A DNA stretch of 48,397 nt from Propionibacteriales bacterium (GTDB lineage Bacteria > Actinomycetota > Actinomycetes > Propionibacteriales > Nocardioidaceae). Shown piece after piece: positions 10,189 to 48,379 of the stretch. Where the stretch lies: contig WHTJ01000024.1 of assembly GCA_009377795.1 (NCBI GenBank), positions 1 through 48,397 on the forward strand, read 5' to 3'. The first letter of the stretch is position 1, and every line of letters begins with the position of its first letter. A model generated the notes under the pieces. The model was not told the DNA's origin. It saw nothing but the letters and a program-made list of their open reading frames with translations, and searched no databases. The translations under genes and the position numbers were made by a program.

Positions 10189-10194
10189 CCGCGG

Positions 10195-11816: not shown

Positions 11817-11833
11817 AACCCACCCCACGTACC

Positions 11834-12908: not shown

Positions 12909-13072
12909 GGCCTCAGGATAGGCGGTCCGGCCAGCGGAACAGGGTAAGACGGGCCCGGTGAACCTGGCCGGTGGGTTGGGACAAATTTCTCGTAAGTTTC
13001 GCCCGCCGAGTTGACGACATGGGGTACTAGCGGTGCACCATGGTGTAGTCCCAGTTGAGGGGGGTTTGAACC

Positions 13073-13192: not shown

Positions 13193-13340
13193 GTCTGTCC
13201 GGGGTCGGTCCGGTCCCGGCTTGGCCCTCGCCGGCCGGTGTGCGCCGGGTTTCATCCCCAGCCCGCGGGACTCGCTGGTTTGTACCCAGGCCGGGTCTCG
13301 AGAGGTACGGCGGCGGGGTGCGGTCCGTCATCGTCGCGGC

Positions 13341-17184: not shown

Positions 17185-17359
17185 GCCAGCGGGATTGCCA
17201 ACACTGCCTAGCGAGCCGGTTTGTATCCGCAGTCCCGGGAGATCGGCCGGTTGTCCCCAGGTGAGGTTCGAGGGATTTCGCCGACGATCCGGGGAGCGGA
17301 GGCTCGGTCCCGACACATCCGGTCCCTCCGGGGCCATACCGACAGGGAGGTCACAACAA

Positions 17360-29870: not shown

Positions 29871-31976
29871 GTGTCTCACGAGCCCACACCGGACGATCTG
29901 GTCGCGGAGCCCACGCACTCGATGATGGCCGTCCTCCGGCTGCGGGCGTTCCGGCGGCTGTGGGTCGGCCTCGGCCTGTCCAGCCTCGGCGACTGGCTCG
30001 GCCTGCTGGCGCTCACCGCCATGGCCGGAACCCTTGCCGGTGGCGGGTATGCCGCGCAGAACTTCGCGGTCGCCGGCGTGCTGCTGCTGCGGGTGCTGCC
30101 GGCCGTGGTCATGGGCCCGATCGCGGGCTATGTCGCCGACCGGCTGGACCGGCGGTGGACGCTGGTGGCCGGGGACGTCATCCGCTGCGGGCTGTTCGCG
30201 TCGATCCCCCTGGTGGGAACGCTGTGGTGGGTCTTCGTCGTGACCGTGCTCGTCGAGACGGTCAGCCTGGTGTGGCTGCCGGCCAAGGACGCCACGGTGC
30301 CGAATCTCGTACCGCGGGAGCGACTGGAGGCGGCCAACCAGCTCTCCTTCGGGACGATGTTCGGGTCCGCGCTGCCGGCCGCCGCGCTGTTCACCTTGCT
30401 GACGAAGTGGACGCAGAACCTCAACTCGCTCTTCCCGGACACCGCGATCGATCCGATCGACGTGGCGATCTACTGCAACGCGCTGAGCTACCTGGTGTCG
30501 GGCATCGTCATCGTCACCCTGCACGAGATTCCCCGGGGCTCGGCGATCGCTCCGGAGGATCACCAGAGCGTCTGGCGCACCGTCATCGAGGGCTGGGCGT
30601 ACGTCGGCCAGACCAAGTTCCTGCGCGGCCTCCTGCTGGGCATCTTCGGCGCGTTCGGCGCGGGCGGCGTGGTGATCGGCGTCGGCCGGGTCTTCGTCCG
30701 CGATCTGGAGGGCGGTGACCCGGCGTACGGCGTTCTCTTCGGCTCGATCTTCCTGGGCCTCGCACTCGGAGTGTGGGTCGGCCCGCGGATGCTGAAGGGG
30801 TTGTCGAGGCGGCGACTGTTCGGGCTGTCGCTCACGGTCGCCGGACTGCTGCTCGGCACCTTGGCTCTGGTCCCCGAGTTCGCCCTCGTCACGATTCTCA
30901 CGGTGGCGCTGGGATTCTGTGCCGGCATCACCTGGATCACCGGCTACACCCTGGTCGGCCTGGAGGTGGAGGATGCCGTCCGCGGCCGCACGTTCGCGTT
31001 CGTGAACTCCATGATCCGGCTGGTGCTCGCCCTGGTGCTGGCCACCGCGCCACTGGTCGCCGGCCTGATCGGCACACACACCCTGGAGCTGACCGAGGAG
31101 ATCAGCTGGGAGTATCACGGCGCGGCCGCTACGCTCTTCATCGCGGCGGTCATCGCGACCGCTGTCGGGGTCACCGCGTACCGTCATATGGATGATCGCC
31201 GGGGTGTGCCGCTCCATCAAGACCTCCGCAAGGCTTTCGCGGGGCCGTCGGGTCAGTACGCCGCTCGCGGGCTCTTCGTCGCTCTGGAAGGGGGCGAGGG
31301 CAGCGGCAAGTCCACCCAGGCGCGGCTGCTCGCAGAGTGGCTGGAGCGAGAGGGGTATCGCGTGGTCCTGACCCGGGAGCCCGGCGACACCAAGGTCGGT
31401 TCCACCCTGCGCGACATCGTGCTCGACCCGGCGACCGGCCACCTGTCGCCGCGCACCGAGGCTCTGCTCTACGCCGCCGACAAGGCCGAGCACGTCGACA
31501 AGGTGATCATCCCCGCGCTGGATCAGGGCGCGGTGGTGATCACCGATCGGTACGTCGACTCGACGCTGGCGTACCAGGGCGCCGGGCGGGAGCTGCTGCT
31601 GGAGGACGTCGAGCGGGTCGCCCGCTGGTCCACGGCGGAGCTGCGGCCGCACCTGACGGTCCTGCTCGACCTGCCTCCGGACCAGGGTCTCGGCCGGTTC
31701 ACCGGTCCCGACCGGCTGGAGGCCGAGCCGCTGGAGTTCCATCAGCGGGTACGCGCGTCGTACCGCACGCTCGCCTCAGCCGACGCGGAGCACTACGCCA
31801 TGATCGATGCGGCACGCCCGCCGGAGGAGATCGCCGAGTCCATCCGGCGCCGGGTGCGGCCGCTGCTGTCCGACGTCGCGCGCGGTGCTCCCGCGGCCAG
31901 ATCGGAGGCGCCCACCGCACCCGCCACGGTGCCGACGGCGACGCCGCGTGCCGATCGGGAGGGAGACGACTCGTGA
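29871..31976 (+). CDS. MFS-type membrane protein fused to thymidylate kinase
   Basis: A 701-residue fusion. Residues 1-440 are a 12-helix MFS-like transporter (FRRLWVGLGLSSLGDWLGLLAL, then VMGPIAGYVADRLDRR as motif A). Residues about 462-660 are a complete thymidylate kinase: P-loop GGEGSGKST at about 474, TREPG, ITDRYVDST and the LID-side GRFTGPDRLE. The kinase makes dTDP for DNA synthesis. The fusion is known in actinomycetes (SCO3542 in Streptomyces); what is transported, if anything, is unknown. A Pro/Ala/Thr-rich tail follows. The stop overlaps the delta-prime start by 4 bases (GTGA). Confidence 0.93.
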   Translation: MSHEPTPDDLVAEPTHSMMAVLRLRAFRRLWVGLGLSSLGDWLGLLALTAMAGTLAGGGYAAQNFAVAGVLLLRVLPAVVMGPIAGYVADRLDRRWTLVAGDVIRCGLFASIPLVGTLWWVFVVTVLVETVSLVWLPAKDATVPNLVPRERLEAANQLSFGTMFGSALPAAALFTLLTKWTQNLNSLFPDTAIDPIDVAIYCNALSYLVSGIVIVTLHEIPRGSAIAPEDHQSVWRTVIEGWAYVGQTKFLRGLLLGIFGAFGAGGVVIGVGRVFVRDLEGGDPAYGVLFGSIFLGLALGVWVGPRMLKGLSRRRLFGLSLTVAGLLLGTLALVPEFALVTILTVALGFCAGITWITGYTLVGLEVEDAVRGRTFAFVNSMIRLVLALVLATAPLVAGLIGTHTLELTEEISWEYHGAAATLFIAAVIATAVGVTAYRHMDDRRGVPLHQDLRKAFAGPSGQYAARGLFVALEGGEGSGKSTQARLLAEWLEREGYRVVLTREPGDTKVGSTLRDIVLDPATGHLSPRTEALLYAADKAEHVDKVIIPALDQGAVVITDRYVDSTLAYQGAGRELLLEDVERVARWSTAELRPHLTVLLDLPPDQGLGRFTGPDRLEAEPLEFHQRVRASYRTLASADAEHYAMIDAARPPEEIAESIRRRVRPLLSDVARGAPAARSEAPTAPATVPTATPRADREGDDS

Positions 31977-34758: not shown

Positions 34759-35862
34759 ATGGGAACAACAAAGATGCCGGGTCAATCGCCGACGGTTTAC
34801 GTTCATATCGGGCTGGCCAAGACCGGTACGACGTACCTGCAGGGACTGATGTGGGGCAACCGCCGACGACTGGACGGTGCCGGCGTGCGGTTGCCCGGTC
34901 AGCGCCGGAAGCAGCACCTGGCCGCCTCGTCGAGCCTGTGTGAGCAGTCGTTCGACCAGGACCTGGCGACGACCGGCCCCGCGGCCTGGGACGCGCTCGC
35001 CGACGAGGCGCGTCGCGCCCCCGCTCGCGTCGTGATCTCCCACGAGACGCTGTCGAGGGCGACCGCGGAGCAGGCCAAGCATGCGCTCGCGTCCCTGGAA
35101 CCGGCCGAGGTGCACCTGATCGTGACCATGCGGGATCTCGCCCGGCAGGTGCCCGCGCTGTGGCAGGAGCGTCTGAAGAACCGCTCGAAGATCCCGTACT
35201 CGCGCTTCCTGAAGCGGATCGCCCGCGGACCGGACCCGTTCTGGCGGGGCCAGGACGTCCTGGACGTTCTCGCCCGGTGGGGCGGTGTGCCCGCAGAGCG
35301 CGTGCACGTGGTCACGGTTCCGCGACCCGGAGCGCCGCGCGGGTTGCTCTGGACGCGCTTCGCGTCCGTGGTCGGCGTTGACCCGGCGATCGCCACCCGG
35401 GAGCCGAAACGAGCCAACGAGTCCCTGAGCGTCGCCGAGGCCGAGCTGCTGCGACGGCTGAACCCCGCACTGCGGAAGGGCACCCACGATCGGGGCACCT
35501 ACTTCCGAGTGGTCAAGCGCCACCTCGCACCCAACGTGCTGGCCGGCATGGCGCCCCAACCGCGGATCACCGTTCCAGAAGAGCACCGGGACTGGATGCG
35601 GGACCGCGCGCGGCTGATGATCGACGGTCTCGCCTCCGGAGGCTTCGATGTCGTCGGCGACCTCGCCGATCTGGAGCCGGACTTCGGCGACGCGGAGTTC
35701 GTCTCACCCGAGAGCCTGTCGGCCGAACAACTCATGGAGCTGGCCGCGCAGTGTGTCACGGCCGTGCTGGTGCAGAACAATCGGCTCCGCGCGTCCGGAC
35801 GCGACAAGTCCCCGGCGCGGCGACTCGCTAAGGTGCGCTCGGAGGCTGTCGAGGAAAGGTAG
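34759..35862 (+). CDS. Sulfotransferase-like protein 1
   Basis: A 367-residue P-loop protein of the sulfotransferase fold. The 5-prime phosphosulfate loop is HIGLAKTGTTYLQ (Lys21 to Thr25). The 3-prime phosphate region is MRDLARQVPALWQERLKN, in which Ala replaces the usual Ser. Other shared family signatures are VISHETLS, HVVTVPRPGAPRGLLWTRFA, the ANESLSVAEAELLRRLN helix and GGFDVVGDLADLEPDFGD. The tail is basic. ATG 34759 has AGGA 9 bases ahead; ATG 34774 is an alternative. First of six same-strand paralogues; the acceptor is unknown, a surface glycan being likely from context. Confidence 0.83.
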   Translation: MGTTKMPGQSPTVYVHIGLAKTGTTYLQGLMWGNRRRLDGAGVRLPGQRRKQHLAASSSLCEQSFDQDLATTGPAAWDALADEARRAPARVVISHETLSRATAEQAKHALASLEPAEVHLIVTMRDLARQVPALWQERLKNRSKIPYSRFLKRIARGPDPFWRGQDVLDVLARWGGVPAERVHVVTVPRPGAPRGLLWTRFASVVGVDPAIATREPKRANESLSVAEAELLRRLNPALRKGTHDRGTYFRVVKRHLAPNVLAGMAPQPRITVPEEHRDWMRDRARLMIDGLASGGFDVVGDLADLEPDFGDAEFVSPESLSAEQLMELAAQCVTAVLVQNNRLRASGRDKSPARRLAKVRSEAVEER

Positions 35863-35867
35863 TACGG

Positions 35868-37028
35868 ATGGCCGGTGCACCGCCCACCGTGTATGTCCAT
35901 ATCGGGCTCGCCAAGACAGGCACGACGTACCTGCAGCAGCTGATGTGGGAGAACCGCGAATCGCTGGCGAAGGCCGGGTTGCTGTATCCCGGCCGGCGCC
36001 GGACCGAGCATTTCCTCGCCGCGGTCGACCTGCGTGCGGATCCCAGTCCGCGCGCACCCGGCAGCCTGCAACCCGGGACGTGGGACGCCCTGGTCGAGGA
36101 GGCCCACTCGGCACCCGATCGGGCGGTGATCTCGCACGAATGGCTGGCCCGGGCGACCACGGCACAGGCTCAGCGGGCGGTCTCCTCCCTGGAGCCGGCC
36201 GAGGTGCATCTGATCGTGACCATGCGGGATCTGGCCCGCCTGCTTCCCGCGTTGTGGCAGGAGCTGGTGAAGAACGGGCGGGTGCTGACGTACGCCGACT
36301 TCCTCGGCAAGCTGTCCCGGGGGCTGGACCACTTCCCGGCCGGACAGAACGTGATGGGCGTCCTGTCCCGCTGGGACGCCGTACCCCCCGAGCGGGTGCA
36401 CGTGGTGACGGTGCCGAGGCCAGGCACCGACCGCGACCTGCTCTGGGAGCGGTTCGCCTTGGTCATGGGCGTCGATCCGGCGGTCGCGACCATTCCCACC
36501 GAGCGTACGAACGACTCGCTGAGCGTGGTGGAGAGCGAGTTGCTGCGCCGGTTGAACCCGGCGCTCAAGAAGCGGTTCGCCGGCCCGGCGTACTACCGAG
36601 TCGTCAAGGACCGCTTCGTGGCCGAGGTGCTGGCGGGCACCTCGCCGCACCCGCGGCTGAAGGTGCCGGTCGAGCACCGGGACTGGATGACCGAGCGCGC
36701 CCAGGAGATGATCGACGGGCTCGCGAGCGGCGGCTTCGACATCGTCGGCGACCTCGCCGACCTGAAGCCCGAGTTCGGTGATCCGGTTGTCGCGGACCCG
36801 GCCGACGTGACCGACCGGCAGCTCTGGGAGCTTGCCGCGCAGTGCCTCGTGACCGTGGTCGGGGACAACCACGACCGTCGACGGAAGGCCGGACGCGCGC
36901 GTCGGCGCCGGGTGCCGAGGGTTGCCCGGCGGCTGCCGCGGAGGGTGGCGCGCCGCCTGCCGCCGGACGTTCGTAGCCGGATGCGCTCGGGGGTACGGCG
37001 CGTGCGCGGCGCGATGAAACCCTCGTGA
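35868..37028 (+). CDS. Sulfotransferase-like protein 2
   Basis: A 386-residue paralogue of the preceding gene, 5 bases downstream, with GAGGAAAGG ahead of ATG 35868. It has HIGLAKTGTTYLQ, VISHEWLA, MRDLARLLPALWQE (Ala at the usual Ser position), TNDSLSVVESELLRRLN and GGFDIVGDLADLKPEFGD. The last 50 residues are extraordinarily rich in Arg (about half), including RVARRLPRRVARRLP. This would make a basic arm suited to acidic lipids or anionic polymers. Confidence 0.83.
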   Translation: MAGAPPTVYVHIGLAKTGTTYLQQLMWENRESLAKAGLLYPGRRRTEHFLAAVDLRADPSPRAPGSLQPGTWDALVEEAHSAPDRAVISHEWLARATTAQAQRAVSSLEPAEVHLIVTMRDLARLLPALWQELVKNGRVLTYADFLGKLSRGLDHFPAGQNVMGVLSRWDAVPPERVHVVTVPRPGTDRDLLWERFALVMGVDPAVATIPTERTNDSLSVVESELLRRLNPALKKRFAGPAYYRVVKDRFVAEVLAGTSPHPRLKVPVEHRDWMTERAQEMIDGLASGGFDIVGDLADLKPEFGDPVVADPADVTDRQLWELAAQCLVTVVGDNHDRRRKAGRARRRRVPRVARRLPRRVARRLPPDVRSRMRSGVRRVRGAMKPS

Positions 37029-37095
37029 GTTGAAACGCTCGGATATCGATCTAACATGCCTACGAGGAACCGATTGCCAGCTCAGGGGATCTCTC

Positions 37096-38181
37096 ATGAA
37101 ACGAGAGGGGCACACGCGTCGTCTCTGGATTCATATCGGCGCACCGAAAACGGGTACGACCTACCTGCAGGATTTGATCTGGAGGAACAAACCGCGCCTG
37201 GCCGCGGCCGGCGTGTACTGCCCGGGAGCCAAGCAGGCGCACCATCACCGCGCCGCGCTCGACCTGCGCCAGGCCGACGACCACGGCGCCCGCCGCCCGA
37301 ACGCGCCCGGCTCGTGGGACCGGCTGTCCGAGGAGGTCGCGGCCGGGTCCGGCGACTGCGTCATCACCTCCGAGCTGCTGGCGTGGACGCCGCGCAGGCG
37401 CACCGGCCGGGCGTTCGCGTCCTTTCCGGGGCATCAGGTCCATGTCGTGTTCACCATGCGGGACTTCGTCCGCCAGATCCCGGCGGTGTGGCAGGAGTGG
37501 GTCAAGAACCGCGGGGTGACGACGTACGAGGAGTTCGTCGAGGGTGCGTTGCGCGGTGCGGAGAACGACCGGATACACCGGCGTATGTGGCGGGCTCAGG
37601 ACCCCCGCCGGGTCCTCCGTGCCTGGGGCACGGCGATCCCCCCGGAGCAGGTGCACGTGATCACGGTCCCGCCCGCGGGCGCGCCTCCGGACGCCCTCTG
37701 GCAGCGCTTCTGTCGCGTGCTCGGCGTCGACCCGGCGGCCTTCGACACCTCGATCGAGCGGGCGAACGAGGGGCTCAACTTCCAGGAGACCGAGTTCCTC
37801 CGGCGGATCAACCTCGCGATCCCGGACCGCGTGAGCTGGGCGACGTACAACCAGATGATCAAGACCGGGATCGCACGCCACGTGCTCGGCCGCGGCGGCG
37901 CGCGGATCGCGCTTCCACCCCAGTACCTACCCGCGGTGAGGACCCGCACCGAGGAGGCCACGGCGTTCCTGCGCGAGCAGGGGTACGACGTCGTCGGCGA
38001 CCTGGCCGACCTGGACCCGCCGGCCGGTGCCGCGTCGGCATCGCAGGACGAGCCGGAGGAGCAGCTGACCCAGCTGCTGGACGAGTCGGCCGCCGCGGTG
38101 GCTCGGCTGGTGGACGAGGTCCAGCGCAGCTGGGACGACGCCGGCGCCCTGCGAGCCGGGTTGGAGGAGCTGCGCCCGTGA
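37096..38181 (+). CDS. Sulfotransferase-like protein 3
   Basis: A 361-residue member of a second subgroup with HIGAPKTGTTYLQ, HHHRAALDLRQ, VITSELLAW (Ser-Glu in place of His-Glu), MRDFVRQIPAVWQE, ANEGLNFQETEFLRRIN and GYDVVGDLADLDPP. The C-terminus lacks the Arg arm and instead forms an acidic coiled-coil-like helix (DESAAAVARLVDEVQRSW). ATG 37096 with AGGGG upstream gives the best start, although the frame is open back to 37030. Confidence 0.82.
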   Translation: MKREGHTRRLWIHIGAPKTGTTYLQDLIWRNKPRLAAAGVYCPGAKQAHHHRAALDLRQADDHGARRPNAPGSWDRLSEEVAAGSGDCVITSELLAWTPRRRTGRAFASFPGHQVHVVFTMRDFVRQIPAVWQEWVKNRGVTTYEEFVEGALRGAENDRIHRRMWRAQDPRRVLRAWGTAIPPEQVHVITVPPAGAPPDALWQRFCRVLGVDPAAFDTSIERANEGLNFQETEFLRRINLAIPDRVSWATYNQMIKTGIARHVLGRGGARIALPPQYLPAVRTRTEEATAFLREQGYDVVGDLADLDPPAGAASASQDEPEEQLTQLLDESAAAVARLVDEVQRSWDDAGALRAGLEELRP

Positions 38182-38237
38182 CGGTGTCTGATCGTGTCCG
38201 GCGGACCGCGCGGGCCCGCGGCATCTAGGATGTCTCG

Positions 38238-40643
38238 ATGGCCAGCTCAGCCGAGGCTCCGCGGTACGACGGGAAGGCGCGCCGGATCTGGATTCACGTC
38301 GGCGCGCCGAAGACCGGGACGACGTTCCTCCAGGGCGTGCTGGGCAAGAACCGGCGCAAACTGGCGGAGGCCGGCCTGCTCTATCCCGGTATCGGAGGAG
38401 CCGACCATCACAACGCGGCGCTCGATCTACGGGGCGTCTCGTTCGGCACCGTTCTGGACCCGAATGTGCGTGGCGGCTGGCGGCGTTTCGTCCGAGAGGT
38501 CAGCGAGTGGCGTCAGGACGTCGTCTTCTCCTCGGAGCTGTTGGCCTGGGCAGCACCCCAGCACGTCAACCAGGCGTTCGAGGTGTTCTCCGATCACGAG
38601 ATCCACCTGATCTTCACCATGCGCGACCTGGTGCGCCAGCTTCCCGCGGTGTGGCAGGAGTCGATCCGGAACCGCGGCCGGTTGACCTACGAGGAGTTCC
38701 TCGAGAGGGCGCTGACGCCCCGGGACGAGTCGGACGCCGGCCCGGGAGGCATGTGGTGGGGCCAGGACCCGCGGCTTGGCTTGGCGGTGTGGGCCGAGGA
38801 GCTGCCGCCGGAACGGGTCCACGTGGTCACCCTCCCGCCGTCCGGCGCGCCCCCGGACACCCTGTGGCGGCGGTTCTGCGAGGTGATCGACGTCGACCCG
38901 GCCGCCTACGACACCCGGATCGACGAGGCCAACGAGGGCCTCGGCCCGGCCGAGACCGAGCTGCTGAGGCAGCTCAACGCCGCGATCCCGGACGGCGTGA
39001 CCTGGCCGACGTACAACCACTTGGTCAAGGCCGGCGTCACCCCGAACGCACTGGCCGGACGCGGGGAGAAGGTACGGCTGCCGCCGGACAGCCTCCCGAA
39101 GGTCAAGGCCCGCACCGATGACATCGTCGGCCACCTGCGGGAGCGGGGGTTCGACGTCGTCGGCGATCTCGCGGACCTGGAACCTCCGGACGGCGGTTCC
39201 CCACGCCCGCGCCCGGATCCCCAGCAGCAGCTGGACCGGGTGATCGAGGGTACGGCGGCCGCGATGGGCGAGCTGGTGCGCCGGGTGCAGCAGGCGCGCG
39301 ACGAGGCGGCCGCTGTGCGGCAGGAGCTCGAGCGGATCCGGGATGAATCGACGGACGCGCAGTCGAGCGAGTGGGCCGAGTACCACGACTCCGAGGACCC
39401 GGACGCGCTGCGCGCGAGGTTCCCGGGCCACCCAACCCGGTCGGTGTTCGAGCCGCGTTACGATCCGGGCGCGGGACGGCATGCCGTGTTCCTCGTCCTC
39501 GGCGCACCAAAGACCGGCCTCGGTGTCGGTGGGGAGGTGCTGTGGGCATCCCGGGACGCGCTGGCCCGGCAGGGGGTTCGGCTCGCTGGCCGCGGCGCCC
39601 ACGACCAGTTCCTGGCCACCTGGGACGTACGCGACCTGATGTTCGGTCCGGAGCCGAAGGCGGCAGTGGGTGCGTGGGAGTCTTTGGCCGCCCAGGTCCG
39701 CGGCGAGCCGGGCACCTGGGTCATCGCGCACGAGCTGTTCTCCCAGGCACTGGCCAAGCAGGCACGTAGTGCCGTGGAGTCGTTGGCCCCCGCCGAGGTA
39801 CACCTCGTCTTCCTCGCCCCGAGCGTGGACCGGCAGGTTCCCGCCGAGTGGCTGGAACAGCTGCGGCTGGGCAGTAGGCAGCCGTACACGGAGTTCGTCT
39901 CCGCGATCCTGGACGACGCCGATCGGTCTCCGCACATGTCGGTCTTCTGGTCCATGCAGGACCCGTTCGACGTGCTCGACCGGTGGGGCGAGACCGTACA
40001 CCCCGAGCACGTCCACCTGGTCACCGTCCCGCACGCCGGCGTGGAGACCCGCTCGCACACGTGGGAGCGGCTGGGTGCCGTGTTCGGCGTCGATCCGGAC
40101 GAGGTGGGGTTCGAGGAGGAGAGCCGGGACGATCCGGGCGCCCTGGAGGCCGAGGTCGTACGCCGGCTCAACGTCGTGCTCCGTGATCGGGAGTGGGCGA
40201 TGGCCGGCGGTCGCCACGAGCTGGGCACGACCACGGCGGCGTACAACGAGGTGGTCCGCGACCTGGTCGTCGACGACCTGTTGGCCGCTCACCAGGAGGG
40301 CGCCGGGGTGCCGTTCCCGGCCGAGCTGGAGTCGTGGGCGATCCGGCGTGCACAGGGGATCGCCGAGGCAGCGGCCGGTCGAGGCTGGGACGTCGTCGGT
40401 GACCTCGCGGACCTGCTGCCGGCGGTGGACCTCGGCCAGGTACGCCGTCCGCTCCCGGGCGAGTCGGAGAGCGACACCGTCCGGGCGGCCATGGAGGCGC
40501 TCGCCGCGGTCACCGGCCACATCGCCGCCCGGCGTGAGCGCAGGTTGGTCCACCGGCTCAAGGCGGCGGCGGTGAAGACCGCGAACAAGACCGAGGCCAC
40601 GCGCGCGTTGCGTCGCCGGGTAGGACGCTGGCGCCGCAACTAG
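38238..40643 (+). CDS. Tandem two-domain sulfotransferase-like protein
   Basis: An 801-residue protein with two full sulfotransferase-like domains. Domain 1 (about 15-320) is close to protein 3: HVGAPKTGTTFLQ, DHHNAALDLRG, VFSSELLAW, MRDLVRQLPAVWQE. A coiled-coil linker (about 330-375) follows. Domain 2 (about 410-745) keeps the fold markers WVIAHELFS, RQVPAEWLEQL, HLVTVPHAG and GWDVVGDLADLLP. Its P-loop reads GAPKTGLGVG, losing both Thr residues, and the Arg of the 3-prime site is replaced by Pro (LAPSVDRQ). Domain 1 is presumably catalytic and domain 2 pseudo-enzymatic. TAGGAT ends 6 bases before ATG 38238, suggesting a leaderless start. Confidence 0.83.
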   Translation: MASSAEAPRYDGKARRIWIHVGAPKTGTTFLQGVLGKNRRKLAEAGLLYPGIGGADHHNAALDLRGVSFGTVLDPNVRGGWRRFVREVSEWRQDVVFSSELLAWAAPQHVNQAFEVFSDHEIHLIFTMRDLVRQLPAVWQESIRNRGRLTYEEFLERALTPRDESDAGPGGMWWGQDPRLGLAVWAEELPPERVHVVTLPPSGAPPDTLWRRFCEVIDVDPAAYDTRIDEANEGLGPAETELLRQLNAAIPDGVTWPTYNHLVKAGVTPNALAGRGEKVRLPPDSLPKVKARTDDIVGHLRERGFDVVGDLADLEPPDGGSPRPRPDPQQQLDRVIEGTAAAMGELVRRVQQARDEAAAVRQELERIRDESTDAQSSEWAEYHDSEDPDALRARFPGHPTRSVFEPRYDPGAGRHAVFLVLGAPKTGLGVGGEVLWASRDALARQGVRLAGRGAHDQFLATWDVRDLMFGPEPKAAVGAWESLAAQVRGEPGTWVIAHELFSQALAKQARSAVESLAPAEVHLVFLAPSVDRQVPAEWLEQLRLGSRQPYTEFVSAILDDADRSPHMSVFWSMQDPFDVLDRWGETVHPEHVHLVTVPHAGVETRSHTWERLGAVFGVDPDEVGFEEESRDDPGALEAEVVRRLNVVLRDREWAMAGGRHELGTTTAAYNEVVRDLVVDDLLAAHQEGAGVPFPAELESWAIRRAQGIAEAAAGRGWDVVGDLADLLPAVDLGQVRRPLPGESESDTVRAAMEALAAVTGHIAARRERRLVHRLKAAAVKTANKTEATRALRRRVGRWRRN

Positions 40644-40704
40644 CCACGGGATTTCGCGGTGGCAGCTCAGTGGCGGCTCGGCCGGTCCAGTGAATGGTTG
40701 TCGA

Positions 40705-40765
40705 AGCTCTGTAGCTGTTACATCGCGCGTAACAACGGAACAGGGGACGTGACGTCTACAGAGCT
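40705..40765. promoter_or_regulatory. Nested inverted repeats before sulfotransferase 5
   Basis: AGCTCTGTAG (40705-40714) and CTACAGAGCT (40756-40765) are perfect 10-bp arms 41 bp apart. Inside, TGTTAC (40716-40721) and GTAACA (40729-40734) form a second pair. The element lies in the 237-bp gap before the gene at 40881. The nearest promoter candidate is TATGGT near 40840 with TTGCTT 19 bp upstream of it. Confidence 0.5.
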
Positions 40766-40880
40766 CCGCGGGCCTTTCTCGTGTGCCCTCCCGCCGAGCC
40801 TGGTCGCAGGCGCTTGCTTCGGCGCCGTGACGGGCGACTATGGTGTCTCGCGCAAGAGCACGGAAAGGAATCGGGACTTC

Positions 40881-42140
40881 ATGCCGAGCCATGGGCCCAC
40901 GGTCTATCTCCACATAGGTCTTCCCAAGACCGGTACGACCCATCTGCAGAGTCTCGCCTGGCGTAACCAAAAGAAGCTGAAGGAAGCGGGCGTCGTCTAT
41001 CCGGGTCGCATGGCGCTCCACTTCCTTGCCTCGAACGATCTACGCGGCAGGGCGTTCGTCGGCGACCCGACGACCCTGCGGCCCGGTTCCTGGGATGCGA
41101 TCTCGTCGAAGGCGCGCTCGGCGCCGGATCGTGCGCTGGTGTCGCACGAAACACTGGGCTGGGCCCGCACCGAGGACGCCAAGCGGGCCATGGACTCGCT
41201 GGCGCCGGCGACGGTGCACCTGATCGTGACCGTACGCGATCTCGCCCGCCAGGTCCCTGCCGTCTGGCAGGAGCGGCTGAAGAACGGATCGACGGAGACG
41301 TATTCCACGTTCCTCAAGGCGATCTCGTCTCGTCCGGACATCAAGAGCCATCGGCGCTTCTGGCACAGCCAGGATGTCGTGGAGACCCTTTCCCGGTGGT
41401 CGATCCCCCCGCCCGAGCGCGTGCATGTGATCACCGTTCCGCCGTCCGGCTCGTCGCCCGACCTGCTGTGGGAGCGGTTCGCGTCGGTGCTCGGCGTCGA
41501 TCCGGGTGTGGCCACGAGTCCCGCGCCGCGCAACAACACCAGCCTGGGGGTCGCGGAGGCCGAGCTGCTCAGGAGGATGAACCCCATCCTGCGGGAGGGG
41601 GCGGGTAGCCAGTCGGCGTACTCGCGCGTGGTCAAGGGTCATTTCGTGGGCAACATCCTGGCCGGTTCGGACGAGGACGACCGGATCGGCATACCCCCCG
41701 AGTACCGCGACTGGGTGGTCGAGCGCGGCCAGGAGATGATCGACGGCCTCGCGCGCGGAGGTTTCGACATCGTCGGCGACCTGGCCGAGCTGAAGTCCAC
41801 CTTCCCCGACACGGAGTTCGCGGCGCCCGGCGACGTGACCCAGGCCCGGCTGCTGAAGGTCGCCGCCGAATGCGTGGCGGCCCAGGCGATGGAGACCGAC
41901 CGGCTTCGCGGGCAGGCGAAGACCCGGGGTAAGTCGCACAGTCGGCGTATGCCGGAGGCTCGCCCGCACCCGGGAGCGCCCGTGCCAGCACGACCTACGC
42001 CGGCAGCCCGGGCGGAGATCCTGGCCGCGAAGGCGCGGAGGCTGGCTGCGAAGGCGCGGACGCGGGCCGGGCGAGTACGCCGCCGGCTGGCGCTGCGCAC
42101 CCGGCTGCGTCAGCTGAACGCCGTACTCCGGCGTCGTTGA
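40881..42140 (+). CDS. Sulfotransferase-like protein 5
   Basis: A 419-residue paralogue of proteins 1 and 2 with HIGLPKTGTTHLQ, LVSHETLGW, VRDLARQVPAVWQERLKN, NNTSLGVAEAELLRRMN and GGFDIVGDLAELKSTFPD. The C-terminal 70 residues are very basic (AAKARRLAAKARTRAGRVRRR), resembling a histone-like or membrane-binding arm. The frame is open far upstream, but ATG 40881 with GGAAAGGAA about 10 bases ahead yields the family N-terminus. The stop codon lies in a 15-bp tandem repeat shared with the ribosome site of the next gene. Confidence 0.83.
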   Translation: MPSHGPTVYLHIGLPKTGTTHLQSLAWRNQKKLKEAGVVYPGRMALHFLASNDLRGRAFVGDPTTLRPGSWDAISSKARSAPDRALVSHETLGWARTEDAKRAMDSLAPATVHLIVTVRDLARQVPAVWQERLKNGSTETYSTFLKAISSRPDIKSHRRFWHSQDVVETLSRWSIPPPERVHVITVPPSGSSPDLLWERFASVLGVDPGVATSPAPRNNTSLGVAEAELLRRMNPILREGAGSQSAYSRVVKGHFVGNILAGSDEDDRIGIPPEYRDWVVERGQEMIDGLARGGFDIVGDLAELKSTFPDTEFAAPGDVTQARLLKVAAECVAAQAMETDRLRGQAKTRGKSHSRRMPEARPHPGAPVPARPTPAARAEILAAKARRLAAKARTRAGRVRRRLALRTRLRQLNAVLRRR

Positions 42141-42168
42141 CCGAGCCGATCAGGACCGAGCCGATCAG
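42139..42168 (+). repeat. Perfect 15-bp tandem duplication at a gene junction
   Basis: GACCGAGCCGATCAG occurs at 42139-42153 and again at 42154-42168 with no gap. The first copy begins within the stop codon of the gene ending at 42140, and the second runs into the AGGG ribosome site of the next start at 42172. Confidence 0.9.
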
Positions 42169-42171
42169 GGA

Positions 42172-43308
42172 ATGAGGATGCCTCTCAGAAGTCGGCCGAC
42201 GGTCTATCTCCACATCGGCCTGATCAAGACGGGGACCACCTATCTCCAGGGTGTGGTCTGGGCGAACGCCCAGCGGCTGGAGCCGGCCGGCCTGCGGTAC
42301 CCCGGTCACGGTATCGATCACTTCCACGCCTCGATCGACCTGCGCGACCAGCCGTTCCTCGGTGATCCCGCCACCCATCGTCCGAGCGCGTGGAACCGGG
42401 TCGCCGGGGAGGCCCGGTCCGCGCCGGATCGGGCGTTGATCTCGCACGAGACGTTCTCCCGTGCGACGCCGGAGCAGGTGCAGCGGGCGGTCTCGTCGCT
42501 CGCGCCGGCCGAGGTGCACCTCATCCTGACGCTTCGTGACCTGGGTCGGCAGGTCCCGGCGGTGTGGCAGGAGCGAATCAAGAACCGATCGGAGGAGTCC
42601 TATGCGCGCTTTCTCCGGGACATCACCGGCCGACCGCGCAAGCGGGGGGTGGTGCACTTCTGGCAGGGCCAGGATGTGCTGGACGTCCTCCGGCGCTGGG
42701 ATGCGATCCCACCCGAGCGGGTGCATGTGGTCACGGTCCCTTCGGCCGACTCACCCCGCGAGCTGTTGTGGGAGCGGTTCGCCTCCGTTCTCGGAGTCGA
42801 TCCCGGGCTCGCCCGTACAGCGCCGCCGCGCAGCAACGTGTCCCTCGGTGTCGAGGAGGCGGAGCTGCTTCGCCGGATCAACCCGTACCTGCGCGAGAGT
42901 GTCGGCAGCTGGTTGCGGTACGAGCGCGCGGTCAAGACCCGATTCGCGAACGACATGCTGGCCGGGTTGGCGTCCGAACCCCGGCTGGTCGTTCCGGACG
43001 AGTATCAACCGTGGCTGACCGAGCGTGCCCGAGCGATGATCGACGGTCTCAGCGACGGCGGGTTCGACATCGTCGGGGACATCGCCGACCTGGAACCAGA
43101 CTTCGGCGACCAGCCGTTCGCTGCGCCGTCGGACGTCTCCCCAGAGCGTCTTCTGGAGCTCGCGGGACGATGCGTCGCCGAGCTGATCGCGGAGAACGAC
43201 GCGCTTCAGCGCACCCTCGACCGGACTCCGCGTGCCCAGATGCAGAAGGCCGGCCGCCGACTCCGGCGCCGGGTCGACGCCGCGTTGGGGTTCTCCCGAC
43301 GTCCCTGA
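42172..43308 (+). CDS. Sulfotransferase-like protein 6
   Basis: A 378-residue paralogue of proteins 1, 2 and 5: HIGLIKTGTTYLQ, LISHETFS, LRDLGRQVPAVWQERIKN, SNVSLGVEEAELLRRIN and GGFDIVGDIADLEPDFGD. The C-terminus is Arg-rich (GRRLRRRVDAALGFSRR). It starts 31 bases after its upstream neighbour; ATG 42172 or 42178 are both possible. It is the last plus-strand member and converges on the next gene with a 20-bp gap. Confidence 0.83.
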   Translation: MRMPLRSRPTVYLHIGLIKTGTTYLQGVVWANAQRLEPAGLRYPGHGIDHFHASIDLRDQPFLGDPATHRPSAWNRVAGEARSAPDRALISHETFSRATPEQVQRAVSSLAPAEVHLILTLRDLGRQVPAVWQERIKNRSEESYARFLRDITGRPRKRGVVHFWQGQDVLDVLRRWDAIPPERVHVVTVPSADSPRELLWERFASVLGVDPGLARTAPPRSNVSLGVEEAELLRRINPYLRESVGSWLRYERAVKTRFANDMLAGLASEPRLVVPDEYQPWLTERARAMIDGLSDGGFDIVGDIADLEPDFGDQPFAAPSDVSPERLLELAGRCVAELIAENDALQRTLDRTPRAQMQKAGRRLRRRVDAALGFSRRP

Positions 43309-43328
43309 CTCAATCTCGGCGCGAGGGG

Positions 43329-44576
43329 TCAGTGGGCTCGGGCGCGCCGGAGGCGGGAACGGGCGCGGCGACCGCCGGCCCGCAACCGGCCGCGGAGAGA
43401 GCCGGATGCCGTGGAGCCGGACCCGGGGGAGCCGGACGGGAACGACGCCGCGGTCGGAGGCAGCTCGCCGAGCCGGGCGCGCAGCTCCCTCAGCTGGCGC
43501 TTCTGGCGGGCTGCGATCCGGAGCAACGCGGCGATGGTGAGCACGGCGGACGGCAGCAGCCGATCCCCGGTGAGGTCGGTCCGGGCGGTGAAGTTCTCGT
43601 GGTCCTCCGGACGCGGGATCAGCTCCTCGAGGTCGCCGCAGACGTCGTACCCACCCTTGCGCAGCTCGGTCACCATCTCGCGAGACTTGTCGAGCGCCCA
43701 CGGCATGGAGTCCGGAGGAAGCACGATCCGGTCGCTGCGTTCGGCGAGGGCCCGGTTGGCCAGGTGCAGGCGTACCAACTGGTCGTACTCCATGGCCGGG
43801 ATCCGCGGCCTCCGCTGGGCGAGCCGCCGGTTGACCCGCCGGAGCAGCTCGGCCTCCACGATGCCGAGGCCCCGGTTGGTGCGCTGGACGTCGGTGTCGT
43901 ACCGGTCGGCGTCGAGTCCGGTCACAGTGCAGAAACGCTGCCACAGGGTGTCCCCGGACGCGCCGGGTTGGGGGACGGTGACGATGTGGATGCGCTCTGC
44001 GGGTACGACGGTCGCCCACCGCCGCAGGATGAACGGCGCGTCGTGCAGTCCCCAGAACATCTCACCGAACGGCTTGGGCGCGTCGTGTCCGAGCTCGACG
44101 AGATCGCCGACGAACTGTTCGAGGGTCACGGTGTGGCGGTGCTTGAGATGCTCCTGCCAGTCGGACGTGAGCTGGCGAGCGATGTCTCTCGCGGTGAAGA
44201 TCACGTGCACCTGCGCGGGCTCGAGCGACCTCACGAGGCGCCTGATCTGGGGCTCGGTGGCGCCGCCCATGATCTCGTGGCCGAGGATCACCGTGTGGCC
44301 GGGCCAGTCGCGGGCCCGCTCGGCGATCGTGTCCCATGCCCCGGCGAAGTCGCGACGTGACGAGTCGCCCCAGCCCCGCTCTCGCAGGTCGAGCGTGGCG
44401 CGCAGATGCTCCCCGCGCTTGGTGTACGGATAGAGGATGCCGTCCTCGGCCAGGTGCTCGCGGTTCGCCCACATCACCTGCTGCACGAACGTCGTACCCG
44501 TCTTCGGCGCACCGATATGGACGAACACCCGGCGCGCGGGCGGCTCATGCGGGGTTGGTCCTTCTGGGTGAGACAT
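43329..44576 (-). CDS. Sulfotransferase-like protein 7
   Basis: A 415-residue member of a third subgroup, on the opposite strand: HIGAPKTGTTFVQQ, VILGHEIMG, ARDIARQLTSDWQEHLKH, TNRGLGIVEAELLRRVN and GGYDVCGDLEELIPRPED. It alone keeps a Ser (TSDW) where the other domains have Ala in the 3-prime phosphate region, by eye alignment. The C-terminus is Ser/Gly/Arg-rich. ATG 44576 is chosen, with AGGTGG close ahead; ATG 44579 is equally possible. It is divergent from the galactofuranosyltransferase, sharing a 215-bp promoter region. Confidence 0.82.
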   Translation of the reverse strand: MSHPEGPTPHEPPARRVFVHIGAPKTGTTFVQQVMWANREHLAEDGILYPYTKRGEHLRATLDLRERGWGDSSRRDFAGAWDTIAERARDWPGHTVILGHEIMGGATEPQIRRLVRSLEPAQVHVIFTARDIARQLTSDWQEHLKHRHTVTLEQFVGDLVELGHDAPKPFGEMFWGLHDAPFILRRWATVVPAERIHIVTVPQPGASGDTLWQRFCTVTGLDADRYDTDVQRTNRGLGIVEAELLRRVNRRLAQRRPRIPAMEYDQLVRLHLANRALAERSDRIVLPPDSMPWALDKSREMVTELRKGGYDVCGDLEELIPRPEDHENFTARTDLTGDRLLPSAVLTIAALLRIAARQKRQLRELRARLGELPPTAASFPSGSPGSGSTASGSLRGRLRAGGRRARSRLRRARAH

Positions 44577-44706
44577 CATCCACCTGGTGTCGGGTTCAAG
44601 CGCTGACCTCCAGGGTGAGAGGCTACTGCCCATGGTGACCGGACCTGTGCATCGGGCTATCAGCGCCGCGGCCGGTCTGGTAGCGTCGCAGGCTGCCGGT
44701 TTGTAC

Positions 44707-44751
44707 CGGCTGAGGCCGGTTGCGCCGGTCGTGTCGGCTGAGACCGGTTGC
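44707..44751. promoter_or_regulatory. Paired 17-bp direct repeats in a divergent promoter
   Basis: CGGCTGAGGCCGGTTGC (44707-44723) and CGGCTGAGACCGGTTGC (44735-44751) differ at one base, with starts 28 bp apart. They lie between the divergent sulfotransferase 7 and glfT2 starts, 40-85 bp upstream of glfT2. CATATT at 44773-44778 is a possible glfT2 -10. Confidence 0.55.
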
Positions 44752-44791
44752 CCAATACAACACCATCCCGCACATATTCGAAGGTGAGCCA

Positions 44792-46777
44792 GTGCGCGTC
44801 GTACAACGAACGATCATCCGCGCCGACCAGGAACTCGACGTCCGTCCGCTCTACGTCGGCGGTATGTCCGCCGTAGGAAGCACAGAGTCCGGCTCGCGTC
44901 AGTCGGGAGAGGAAGAGGCCTGGTCCGAGGACGCGGAGACGGTTTCGAACGGAGCGGGTCTGCTCGCCGGATCGGCCGGTGGGTTCGGGATCCTCTCCGA
45001 CGGTCATGCGGTCGCCCATCCCGGGCAGCGGATGACCCTCGGTACGTACTTCAACGCGTTCCCGGCGAGCTACTGGCGTCGCTGGACGAACGTCGAGGAG
45101 GTGACCCTCCGGGCCACGGTGTCCGGTCACGGCACCTTCCTCGTCTACCGCTCCACGTCCAAGGGGCATGTGCTGCGCTCCGCGTCGAAGTCGATCGACT
45201 CCGACGACCCGGTCGACGTCGAGGTCACCCTGCCGCTGAAGCCCTTCATCGACGGCGGCTGGTACTGGTTCGACGTCGAGGCCGCAGACCGTGAGATGGT
45301 CGTACACAGCGGGGAGTGGCTGGTCGAGACCGAGCGCACGACCCCGGGAACGATCACGATCGGGATCACCACGTTCAACCAGCCGACGTTCTGTGTCGAC
45401 CAGCTGGCCGCCCTGGCCAACTCACAGGAGGTGCTCGACGTACTCGACGAGATCGTCGTCGTCGACCAGGGCACGCAGCACGTTCGGGACCATGAGCTGT
45501 TCACCGCGGTGTCCAAGGTGCTCGGCGAGCGGTTGCGCGTTATCGAGCAGGGAAATCTCGGAGGCTCGGGCGGCTTCTCGCGTTCGATGATGGAGGCCGT
45601 CGACCGCGGCCAGAGCGACTACGTCCTCCTGTTCGACGACGACGTCCAATGCGAGCCCGAGGGGATCCTTCGGGCGATCGCCTTCGCAGACCTCGCCAAG
45701 ACCCCGACGGCAGTCGGCGGCCAGATGTTCAGCCTGTACGACCGGTCGGTGATGCACGCGTATGGCGAGACGGTGAAGAAGTACCGCTGGTTCTGGGGGC
45801 CGGCGCCGGAGACCGAGCACGGTCACAACTTCGCCCGCAAGTCGCTGCAGGGCACGAAGTGGCTGCACCGGCGGATCGACGTCGACTACAACGGCTGGTG
45901 GATGTGCCTGATCCCGACGTCGGTGATCCGCGAGATCGGGCTGTCGCTGCCGATGTTCATCAAGTGGGACGACGCGGAGTTCGGGCTGCGCGCCCAGGAG
46001 GCGGGGTACCCGACCGTGACGCTGCCCGGCGTCGCCGTGTGGCATGTGCCGTGGCACGAGAAGGACGACACCATCGACTGGCAGGCGTACCTCCATCGCC
46101 GCAACCGTCTCGTCGCCGCCCTGCTGCATTCGCCGTACTCGCGTGGCGGTCGCCTGGTGTGGGAGAGCTTCCAGACCCAGATCCGGCACCTGATGTCGAT
46201 GCAGTACGCCCCTGCGGAGATGGGCCTGATGGCCATCGAGGACATCCTGGACGGGCCGAACCGCATGCATCACGACGTGCTCTACCGCGTCCCCGAGGTG
46301 CGGGAGCTCCGCAAGTCGTACCCCGACTCGCAGATGAAGCCTGCGCTCGACGAGTTCCCTGCACCCAGGAGGGTCAAGCCGCCGCGCAAGGGCAAGGGCC
46401 CACAGGCGCCCGGAAACCGGGTCGCGCAGCTCAAGGCGCTGGCGTTGGGCGGTCTGCGCCAGCTGCAGCCGATCCGCTCGACCGCGGTGCGCAACCCCGA
46501 GGCGACCGTCCCGCACATGGATCTGCGGTGGTGGCTGCTCTCCCAGCTGGACAGCGCGCTGGTCTCCTCCGCCGACGGAACGTCGGCCGCCTGGTATCAG
46601 CGGGATCCCGAGCAGTTCCGTGACCTGCTCCGCCGGTCCGTGACCCTGCACGTTCGGCTGTACGAGGAGTGGCCGAAGCTGGTGAACGAGTACCAGCGGG
46701 CGTTGCCCGATCTGGTGAGTCCGGACGCGTGGCGCAAGACGTTCGAGCAGTCCATGGAGCCGGGCCCAGGCGCCTGA
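44792..46777 (+). CDS. glfT2: Polymerising galactofuranosyltransferase GlfT2-like
   Basis: A 661-residue GT-A glycosyltransferase very like mycobacterial GlfT2 (Rv3808c), which builds the galactan chain from UDP-galactofuranose. It has an N-terminal beta-sandwich (about 75-190), then the GT-A domain from TIGITTFNQPTF. The metal-binding triad is Asp282-Asp284 in LLFDDDVQ, the acceptor loop is QGNLGGSGGFSRSM, and the catalytic-base region is KWDDAEFG (Asp393-394). A following WHVPWHEKDD is conserved in GlfT2. The helical C-terminal part is also present. GTG 44792 has AAGGTGA 6 bases ahead. No glf (UDP-galactopyranose mutase) or glfT1 is in view. Its place among sulfotransferases suggests its product is their acceptor. 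Confidence 0.9.
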   Translation: MRVVQRTIIRADQELDVRPLYVGGMSAVGSTESGSRQSGEEEAWSEDAETVSNGAGLLAGSAGGFGILSDGHAVAHPGQRMTLGTYFNAFPASYWRRWTNVEEVTLRATVSGHGTFLVYRSTSKGHVLRSASKSIDSDDPVDVEVTLPLKPFIDGGWYWFDVEAADREMVVHSGEWLVETERTTPGTITIGITTFNQPTFCVDQLAALANSQEVLDVLDEIVVVDQGTQHVRDHELFTAVSKVLGERLRVIEQGNLGGSGGFSRSMMEAVDRGQSDYVLLFDDDVQCEPEGILRAIAFADLAKTPTAVGGQMFSLYDRSVMHAYGETVKKYRWFWGPAPETEHGHNFARKSLQGTKWLHRRIDVDYNGWWMCLIPTSVIREIGLSLPMFIKWDDAEFGLRAQEAGYPTVTLPGVAVWHVPWHEKDDTIDWQAYLHRRNRLVAALLHSPYSRGGRLVWESFQTQIRHLMSMQYAPAEMGLMAIEDILDGPNRMHHDVLYRVPEVRELRKSYPDSQMKPALDEFPAPRRVKPPRKGKGPQAPGNRVAQLKALALGGLRQLQPIRSTAVRNPEATVPHMDLRWWLLSQLDSALVSSADGTSAAWYQRDPEQFRDLLRRSVTLHVRLYEEWPKLVNEYQRALPDLVSPDAWRKTFEQSMEPGPGA

Positions 46778-46824
46778 CGATCCGTTTTCCAGCCGGGCTT
46801 ACAAATTCTGGCGTGTAGTCTGCG

Positions 46825-48084
46825 CTAACATTCGGGCTGCTTCTGACCGCGAAGCCGGCGAGCGGTGTTCGCGGCTTGCCAGTAGCTGCGGCGCATTCGG
46901 TGCAGCGACGGATGTTGTTCGCTGGTGTCGATCAGCATCTGCTTCAGTGGACGGGACTGTCTGCGCTGGATCTCCCCGCTCAGCCTCTGCTTGGTCCCGG
47001 CCAGCCGGTCGCGCTCTTCGGTGATCTGGCGTACGCGTTGTTCACTGGCGCGCAGCTCCAGCGTCGTACGCCGTAACCTGATCAGCAGCTCGGAGATCGT
47101 CTCCAGCGAGACGTCGAGCAGCTCGTCGTCCGGCACGGCCGCGGGGTCGCCCGCGGGCTGGTCGAGGTCCTTCGGGATCAAGTCGTCGAGATCGCCGGTG
47201 ATATGGAGATCGGAGCTCTTGAGTTCGTCGACGATCTTCTCCGACCGGCGTACGATCCACGCCCGGTACTCAGGGTTCACCGTCAGCCGGTGCGGGTCGG
47301 GGCGCTGCGACAGCAGGCTGTGCGCGAGCTCGGTCTTGATCCAGCGCGGCACTTGTCCGCGGCCCTCTTCGAGCAGGCGGGGTACGGCGTACTTGTTCAC
47401 CCGCCGTACGAGCTCGGCCTCGGCCGTTCCGAGTGACTCGTTGACGAAGACGTCGTCGGCCTCCATGTCCGATGGGTCGAAACCCACGATCGAGGCGAAC
47501 TGCTGCCATAGCAGCTCGGGATCAGAGTCCGGAGGCGGCACGACCACGAGATGGCGATGCGCGCCCGGCAGCGCGGACCAGCGTTCGAGCACCCTCGGCG
47601 GATCCTGGACCTGGCGGAACCATGTCGAGCTCGGGCCCTCGGCCATGAGGTCCTCGACGAACTCGTGGAACGGCACCCGCCAGCCGTGCTTGATGTGCTC
47701 CTGCCATTCGGCCGGGATCTGCCGCATGAGGTCGCGTGCCGCGTAGATGAGGTGCACGTCGGCGGGGGCGAGGTAGTCGAGCATGCGTTGTACGGCGGCA
47801 TCGTCGAGACCCGCGAACAGCTCGTGAGTCAACAGCGCCGTACCCGGCCAATCCCGGATCTCGGCCAGCAGCCGCTGCCATGCGGTGTTGGCGCGTGCCG
47901 GATGGCCATGCTCCTCCTCGAGCTGCCCGGTGAGGAAGAGTTTGGACTGGAAGTGCTCGATCAGCCGGCCCGGCAGGCAGATTCCCTGCTCGGCCAGTGC
48001 TGCCTGGTTCGCGAAGAGCCGTCCCTGCAGGAACGTGGACCCCGTCTTCGGCGCACCAATGTGCACATAGACGCGCTGCGCCAT
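46825..48084 (-). CDS. Sulfotransferase-like protein 8
   Basis: A 419-residue member: HIGAPKTGSTFLQ, LLTHELFAGLDD, ARDLMRQIPAEWQEHIKHG, VNESLGTAEAELVRRVN and LHITGDLDDLIPKDLDQ, closest to protein 7. From about residue 325 it has a long heptad-like helix (LLIRLRRTTLELRASEQRVRQI onward), probably a coiled coil, then a basic tail. It converges on glfT2 with a 47-bp gap. The 219 bp between its start and the tRNA gene hold no gene I can recognise. Confidence 0.82.
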   Translation of the reverse strand: MAQRVYVHIGAPKTGSTFLQGRLFANQAALAEQGICLPGRLIEHFQSKLFLTGQLEEEHGHPARANTAWQRLLAEIRDWPGTALLTHELFAGLDDAAVQRMLDYLAPADVHLIYAARDLMRQIPAEWQEHIKHGWRVPFHEFVEDLMAEGPSSTWFRQVQDPPRVLERWSALPGAHRHLVVVPPPDSDPELLWQQFASIVGFDPSDMEADDVFVNESLGTAEAELVRRVNKYAVPRLLEEGRGQVPRWIKTELAHSLLSQRPDPHRLTVNPEYRAWIVRRSEKIVDELKSSDLHITGDLDDLIPKDLDQPAGDPAAVPDDELLDVSLETISELLIRLRRTTLELRASEQRVRQITEERDRLAGTKQRLSGEIQRRQSRPLKQMLIDTSEQHPSLHRMRRSYWQAANTARRLRGQKQPEC

Positions 48085-48303: not shown

Positions 48304-48379
48304 GCCGCCTTAGCTCAGTCGGCAGAGCGATTCACTCGTAATGAATAGGTCGTCGGTTCGAATCCGACAGGCGGCTCCA
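48304..48379 (+). tRNA. tRNA-Thr (anticodon CGU)
   Basis: A complete cloverleaf. The acceptor stem is GCCGCCT/AGGCGGC with discriminator T. The D-arm is TAGCTCAGTCGGCAGAGC, and the anticodon stem ATTCA/TGAAT carries loop CTCGTAA with anticodon CGT. The T-arm is GTCGG-TTCGAAT-CCGAC, and the CCA is encoded (48377-48379). It decodes ACG. Confidence 0.98.

Follow-up and report, generated by a model that had tools for sequence, protein, structure and literature searches.

A GlfT2-centred island of sulfotransferase-like genes in a Propionibacteriales genome and a candidate route to sulfated galactan

Introduction

In bacteria, sulfation of small glycolipids dependent on 3'-phosphoadenosine 5'-phosphosulfate (PAPS) is carried out by the mycobacterial Stf sulfotransferases and by rhizobial NodH, neither of which, to our knowledge, is linked to GlfT2, a component of the mycobacterial galactan pathway (Glf, GlfT1, GlfT2, Wzm-Wzt and LCP). 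Here we analyze an island of genes for sulfotransferase-like proteins (STFs) arranged around a GlfT2-type galactofuranosyltransferase gene in a Propionibacteriales bacterium. The stretch of DNA analyzed (hereafter, the window) is the whole of contig C147 (WHTJ01000024.1; 48,397 nucleotides), and the genome comprises 4.58 Mb in 182 contigs. Compared by description, the activity predicted for the STFs shares with Stf and NodH its bacterial, PAPS-dependent character and differs in the acceptors, which in those enzymes are small glycolipids.

A comparable actinobacterial cluster, wps-1 of Actinoplanes missouriensis, is predicted to be responsible for a sulfated polysaccharide, a prediction that is unproven by its authors' account, and encodes two sulfotransferases (one of the heparan-sulfate type) and a GT2 enzyme that groups with galactofuranosyltransferases (PMC13390465). 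This combination of predicted sulfotransferases with a galactofuranosyltransferase-like GT2 protein recalls the island (WpsH is likened by description only), but the wps-1 product, as described there, is a Wzx/Wzy-dependent sporangium exopolysaccharide (PMC13390465). The same text treats bacterial sulfated polysaccharides as otherwise known only from cyanobacteria (PMC13390465); a review mentions six bacterial genera with such polymers and also treats NodH (PMC11625862), and a sulfated capsule is reported for Cobetia marina (PMC11766843). Our literature search, with most subscription journals outside its coverage, turned up neither an account of sulfated GlfT2 galactan nor one of a link between STFs and GlfT2; thus, what is new is the undescribed partnership, and what is known are the folds and the galactan machinery.

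As in the mycobacterial galactan pathway, the source genome has a GlfT2-family protein, glf, and exporter-like and LCP genes, but it differs in the lack of detectable Emb arabinosyltransferases, in Wzm/Wzt proteins that score far below curated cut-offs and in the STFs beside GlfT2. The best structural matches of the STFs are heparan-sulfate sulfotransferases (the NDST1 domain and 3-OSTs), with which they share the P-loop and the 3'-phosphate Arg; however, the STFs are only 10-14% identical to these enzymes, with no sequence-level match, are bacterial and apparently cytosolic, and often have Ala in place of the 3'-phosphate Ser. The fold of the STFs, their co-occurrence with GlfT2 and the recurrent physical linkage of the two suggest that the island encodes a cytosolic, PAPS-dependent system that sulfates GlfT2-made galactofuranan before export, a reading to which we assign a probability of about 0.6.

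The island and its GlfT2 protein

The island (34774-48084) consists of eight STF genes with nine STF domains and one GlfT2-type galactofuranosyltransferase gene. This composition, proposed in the first-pass annotation of the window, is borne out by the frames, all nine of which have a start codon and a single terminal stop, by a full-length alignment of the nine STF domains, in which 27 columns are invariant and the domains are 34-58% identical to the first of them, and by the GlfT2 domain matches given below. The genes are the following:

STF-1, 34774..35862, plus strand: 362 amino acids; one of four window members of a lineage-specific expansion
STF-2, 35868..37028, plus strand: 386 amino acids; expansion member; Arg-rich tail
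STF-3, 37096..38181, plus strand: 361 amino acids; sister of STF-4 domain 1 (tree support 97)
STF-4, 38238..40643, plus strand: 801 amino acids; two STF domains, the second at ~39459-40643
STF-5, 40881..42140, plus strand: 419 amino acids; expansion member; Arg-rich tail
STF-6, 42172..43308, plus strand: 378 amino acids; expansion member; the protein used for the structure model
STF-7, 43329..44579, minus strand: oriented divergently to GlfT2; two candidate starts, 44579 and 44633
GlfT2, 44792..46777, plus strand: galactofuranosyltransferase
STF-8, 46825..48084, minus strand: 419 amino acids; convergent with GlfT2

The window GlfT2 contains the GlfT2 N-terminal domain, domain 3 and the GT2 core, with matches to PF19320 (E = 1.9e-46) and PF17994 (E = 1.9e-30) and with PF13641 above the cut-off as well. 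GlfT2 proteins of solved structure match it at E values of 1e-152 to 3e-145, the alignment to solved galactofuranosyltransferases spanning residues 57-628 of the 637-amino-acid form, and the DDD, WDD and His motifs, which we take to be the active-site residues, are kept in the alignment with the 9dtp chain. By family, this protein would be a galactan polymerase; its most likely start is the GTG at 44792, behind AAGGTGAG, which yields 661 amino acids.

Eight of the nine STF domains look intact because the second domain of STF-4 has an altered P-loop, in which Lys-Thr-Gly is kept and the next Thr-Thr is replaced by Leu-Gly, and an altered RD motif, the first Arg of which is replaced by Pro; this domain is probably inactive. 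The C-terminal tails of STF-2, -4, -5, -7 and -8 are Arg-rich, Lys or Arg making up 17-24 of the final 70 residues, and could possibly bind an anionic polymer or the membrane. Promoter and terminator scans gave nothing informative.

Fold and motifs of the STFs

The STF-6 protein was modelled with AlphaFold from an alignment of 62 family members (mean predicted local distance difference test score, pLDDT, 93.2; predicted TM-score, pTM, 0.88). By Z score, entries of heparan-sulfate N- or 3-O-sulfotransferases account for 12 of the top 13 structural matches (Z 15.0-13.8; 222-239 residues; 3.6-5.0 A), the other being 3rnl, a bacterial sulfotransferase (Z 13.9). NDST1 matches the model at Z 15.0, the individual scores being 15.0 for 8ccy (4.0 A, 239 residues), 14.9 for 1nst and 13.8-14.3 for the 3-OSTs; the next row is SULT7A1 (Z 10.4), and the kinase rows shown have Z 9.1-9.4 over 173-176 residues. 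All three Foldseek matches with E <0.001 are to 3-OST-3 (TM-score 0.33-0.35 by query length).

The P-loop Lys-Thr-Gly, followed by Thr/Ser, is present in 61 of the 62 alignment rows, with a gap in the remaining one; Arg122 and Trp132-Gln133 are invariant (62/62), and Glu93 is found in 61 rows (STF-6 numbering). The 3'-phosphate site motif of sulfotransferases consists of an Arg and, eight residues on, a Ser. The highest 19-residue hydropathy mean among the STFs is 1.35, so that no membrane helix is suggested, as judged from hydropathy alone, with no signal-peptide predictor applied. The STFs are thus very probably sulfotransferases, and fold and motifs point to PAPS-dependent enzymes acting on polysaccharides, of a family that has no Pfam model. 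The first-pass annotation of nine sulfotransferase-like domains holds for motif and fold, with the amendments that one domain is degenerate and that none reaches a library cut-off. Sequence comparison with solved structures gave no identification of the STFs; the best PDB match, m4D2, covered only ~20 residues and was dismissed as fortuitous.

A profile of the nine domains recovers these same domains at E values of 1e-136 to 6e-164, which is circular by construction. Genome-wide, it has 17 matches, nine in the island and eight on five other contigs; the STF family is therefore not confined to the island, which corrects the earlier picture. One locus outside the island, L021 (G000:C42:44000-63900), has at 8326-17205 two STFs flanking a LicD-like/methyltransferase gene (LicD 32 bits, cut-off 22.6), followed downstream by genes that, read without a family search, presumably encode a phosphonopyruvate decarboxylase, a phosphoenolpyruvate mutase-type protein and a nucleotidyltransferase.

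Co-occurrence of STFs and GlfT2 across genomes

In a search of 196 Actinomycetes genomes, with at most nine candidates scored per genome, the close STF family (E values of 1e-100 or less, a line chosen after seeing the match list) was detected in 17, namely, 17 of the 41 GlfT2-positive genomes vs none of the 155 GlfT2-negative ones (Fisher 1e-13). Because the genomes are related, the genus-level figure is fairer: close STFs occur in 5 of the 82 genera, all inside the 14 GlfT2-positive genera (p = 7e-5). More distant STF homologs (E 1e-40 to 1e-75) are present in 23 of the 196 genomes, none with GlfT2, which limits the GlfT2 tie to the close family. Among 37 Nocardioidaceae, our source genome included, 28 have both, seven have neither (more distant STF homologs being present in four of the seven), one has GlfT2 only (G018) and one has STFs only (G014); the GlfT2 matches of G013, G014, G042 and G057, at E values of 1e-7 to 5e-4, were left uncounted.

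The named STF loci are the top 80 of 374 and lead to 74 distinct genomes, of which 62 have GlfT2 and 12 lack it, the latter being 11 Micromonosporaceae and one Nocardioidaceae metagenome-assembled genome (MAG; L113); the placement of three less familiar names was checked. Outside the Micromonosporaceae, GlfT2 is accordingly found in 62 of the 63 genomes behind these loci, although in eight of the 62, all Prauserella, the match is a weaker one (E ~1e-27). The co-occurrence of STFs with glfT2 in actinomycetes, which the first-pass annotation had suggested looking for, is thus evident in both samples.

Physical linkage

The 27 Nocardioidaceae relatives that hold both genes include 14 in which an STF and GlfT2 are no more than 7 kb apart, vs 1.0 expected, these rows not being phylogenetically independent; G008, in which a contig end cuts the locus, is a likely fifteenth. 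The pairing is found beside topA and/or H_PPase in eight relatives (L056-L063), beside Wzm/Wzt in G003, G017 and G022, with Glf ~8 kb off in G003 and G017, and at another site in G006, G015 and G035. In G023, the linked genes are arranged as H_PPase-STF-GlfT2-topA. At L098, L101, L115 and L157, the STF is kept at the H_PPase or topA site and GlfT2 is not there; the genomes that apparently match the first three loci (G035, G015 and G006, respectively) have GlfT2 elsewhere, again adjoined by STFs, and L157 appears to belong to G029. In a tree of 38 GlfT2 proteins, the window protein belongs to an 18-row clade (support 100/97) in which every row has an STF within 7 kb.

Linkage to glfT2 and glf, likewise anticipated in the first-pass annotation, was detected independently in several families. 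Family f24 (three genomes) has glf-glfT2-STF with abutting or overlapping frames, together with a Sulfotransfer_2 protein (31.1 bits vs a cut-off of 22) and a GlfT1-like protein (92.9 bits, below the cut-off of 330), and in family f17, glf-glfT2 lies alongside a divergent STF pair. An STF and GlfT2 are likewise at most 10 kb apart in a Streptosporangiales MAG, where glf, Wzm and Wzt accompany them, in a Pseudonocardiaceae MAG, in Halopolyspora and in Mycolicibacterium palauense.

Two looser arrangements were noted. In nine of the ten genus g6 genomes with both genes, one contig carries an STF and GlfT2 at a spacing of ~40-65 kb, G005 being the exception. At Nocardioides loci including L152 and L103, the STF pair adjoins genes that presumably encode biotin carboxylase and 3-hydroxy-3-methylglutaryl-CoA lyase, a metabolic locus.

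History of the island

In an STF tree of 92 rows, constructed with a quick method, STF-7 clusters (support 97) with one STF from the GlfT2-flanking run of seven relatives, where this counterpart is the immediate neighbor of GlfT2 in G024, G023 and G002 and the second gene in G033, G011, G001 and G026. STF-1, -2, -5 and -6 form, together with C42:52325, a clade of their own (support 100), and the sister group of this expansion (support 80) is the immediate neighbor of GlfT2 in G033, G011, G001 and G026. These groupings therefore indicate that the island arose by local amplification around a conserved core. The core unit appears to be GlfT2 with a few STFs, the latter amplified in tandem in the source genome, and much of the size of the island is attributable to recent tandem expansion. 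A lineage-specific expansion fits dosage as well as distinct modification sites, so that the modification at several positions suggested in the first-pass annotation is one of two possible readings.

A predicted pathway of galactan sulfation

The genome encodes glf, a Wzm/Wzt-like exporter pair and an LCP protein. The exporter scores 44.7 bits against the curated galactan model NF050109 (cut-off 380) and 160.9 against NF050108 (cut-off 400) and appears to be homologous to the galactan exporters without being their equivalog. A second, very divergent GlfT2 on C110 adjoins glf, the Wzm/Wzt-like pair, the LCP gene and galE, so that the genome may make two galactans; the locus that holds it, L003 (G000:C110:12000-31900), is a classical glf-Wzm/Wzt-LCP-galE cluster. 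The PAPS-synthesis genes to which the first-pass annotation referred, cysC, cysD and cysN, are present on C101, each above the NCBIfam cut-off for at least one model, but APS (adenosine 5'-phosphosulfate) kinase was dropped as a marker because 54 of the 58 relatives match it.

Emb arabinosyltransferase (PF04602) was not found in the source genome and 57 relatives, with a positive control in Corynebacterium glutamicum; because of its absence in these 58 genomes, a mycobacterial-type arabinogalactan was rejected as the identity of the polymer. Across Actinomycetes, close STFs occur in 2 of the 16 Emb-positive vs 15 of the 25 Emb-negative genomes with GlfT2, so the replacement of arabinan by sulfate is a tendency only.

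In mycobacteria, galactan is built at the cytoplasmic face and then moved across by Wzm-Wzt (PMC10951656); a cytosolic STF could therefore reach the whole chain. By family assignment, Glf (C110) would make UDP-galactofuranose, the window GlfT2 would polymerize galactan on the inner side of the membrane, and CysC, CysD and CysN would supply PAPS. The cytosolic STFs, assigned to their class by fold and motifs, would then move sulfate from PAPS onto galactan hydroxyls, after which the Wzm/Wzt-like exporter and the LCP protein would put the polymer on the wall. Linkage and co-occurrence suggest that the GlfT2 product is probably the main acceptor. Of the sulfated-galactan interpretation given in the first-pass annotation, the polysaccharide-sulfotransferase part thus agrees with the fold and the partnership with GlfT2 is seen in linkage and co-occurrence, whereas the choice of acceptor is deduced from the latter two.

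Given that no Emb was found, sulfate might, speculatively, provide the outer decoration that arabinan gives in mycobacteria. We advance only tentatively, at somewhat less than even odds, the broader notion of a widespread, so far undescribed wall chemistry whereby arabinan-free actinobacteria sulfate GlfT2 galactan intracellularly, prior to export, with a new heparan-sulfate-like STF family, sulfate replacing arabinan. If galactan sulfation is real, a large actinobacterial group would have a sulfated galactan, with consequences for how phages attach, for metal binding and for chemotaxonomy based on the wall, and bacterial sulfotransferases for furanose polymers could be obtained from the STFs.

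Alternative interpretations

Several observations weigh against sulfation of galactan by the island. In the source genome, glf and the exporter are on a contig other than that of the island, beside the other GlfT2; in the GlfT2 tree, 12 Nocardioidaceae GlfT2s encoded near Glf, Wzm and Wzt form a separate clade with no STF within 7 kb (at one of these loci, L071, two STFs lie ~8 kb away); and of the 80 named loci, just seven have GlfT2 inside the fetched stretch, counted with stop-to-stop frames. Furthermore, 10 of the 25 Emb-negative, GlfT2-positive genomes are without a close STF, G018 has GlfT2 without any STF, and G014 (85% complete) has 14 STFs but no GlfT2 or glf. All 11 searched Micromonosporaceae carry STFs and no GlfT2, so that another acceptor is likely in this family (the loci are L087, L102, L104, L109, L112, L130, L133, L138, L141, L146 and L162). 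The Micromonosporaceae fit the possibility that the STFs are polysaccharide sulfotransferases of another glycan or a lipid-linked sugar, their tie to GlfT2 reflecting shared wall remodelling, regulation or inherited location, and so do the eight STFs of the source genome outside the island, one pair of which flanks the LicD-like/methyltransferase gene, the Nocardioides STF pairs at the metabolic locus and the four loci with an STF but no GlfT2 at the H_PPase or topA site. This possibility is, however, hard to square with the 62/63 co-occurrence outside the Micromonosporaceae among the best 80 of 374 loci, with linkage that recurs in unlike contexts and families, and with the GlfT2 genes found elsewhere, STFs again adjoining, in the apparent genomes of three of those four loci. 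We consider it unlikely but still to be reckoned with.

The enzyme class itself could be different, the STFs being some other P-loop transferase or a kinase acting on sugars. No STF reached a Pfam or NCBIfam cut-off, the best weak matches being Sulfotransfer_1 (E = 0.011; best score 15.6 bits vs a cut-off of 22) and Sulfotransfer_3 (E 0.044-0.13), and the name 'sulfotransferase' therefore rests on motif and fold; the missing match to a curated model is a limit of the libraries and not a mechanistic feature. Foldseek gives low TM-scores (0.33-0.42 relative to query length), with a sugar kinase at rank seven and kinases among the lower matches, and at the eighth position past Arg122, where Ser is expected, 44 of the 62 rows have Ala and 18 have Ser. 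Nevertheless, the heparan-sulfate sulfotransferases are ahead of the next structural group by at least 3.4 Z over 222-239 residues, with the kinases lower still and over shorter alignments, which makes a different enzyme class highly improbable. Nor do we give more than slight credence to the notion that the island is a local tandem duplication without system-level meaning, in which GlfT2 is located by chance: four window genes and C42:52325 do represent one recent expansion, but in other genera, counterparts adjoining GlfT2 exist both for STF-7 and for the group sister to the expansion, and the linkage in 14 of 27 relatives vs 1.0 expected already disfavors chance. Sulfation of the GlfT2 product before export is thus the reading that we prefer.

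Other features of the window

Upstream of the island lie, in this order, topA, an MFS-thymidylate kinase fusion, holB and an alpha/beta hydrolase gene; the fusion (29871-31976) joins an MFS-type transporter to thymidylate kinase. Farther upstream, the window encodes a bacterial serpin (2170-3330; PF00079, E = 1.4e-88), a long frame with fused hydantoinase A and B domains (6386-10573) and, in a GC-rich stretch, two type II secretion system F-type genes (15611-17184), possibly part of a Tad-like pilus locus. A tRNA-Thr (CGT) gene (48304-48379) is located 220 bases past the last STF, at the contig end.

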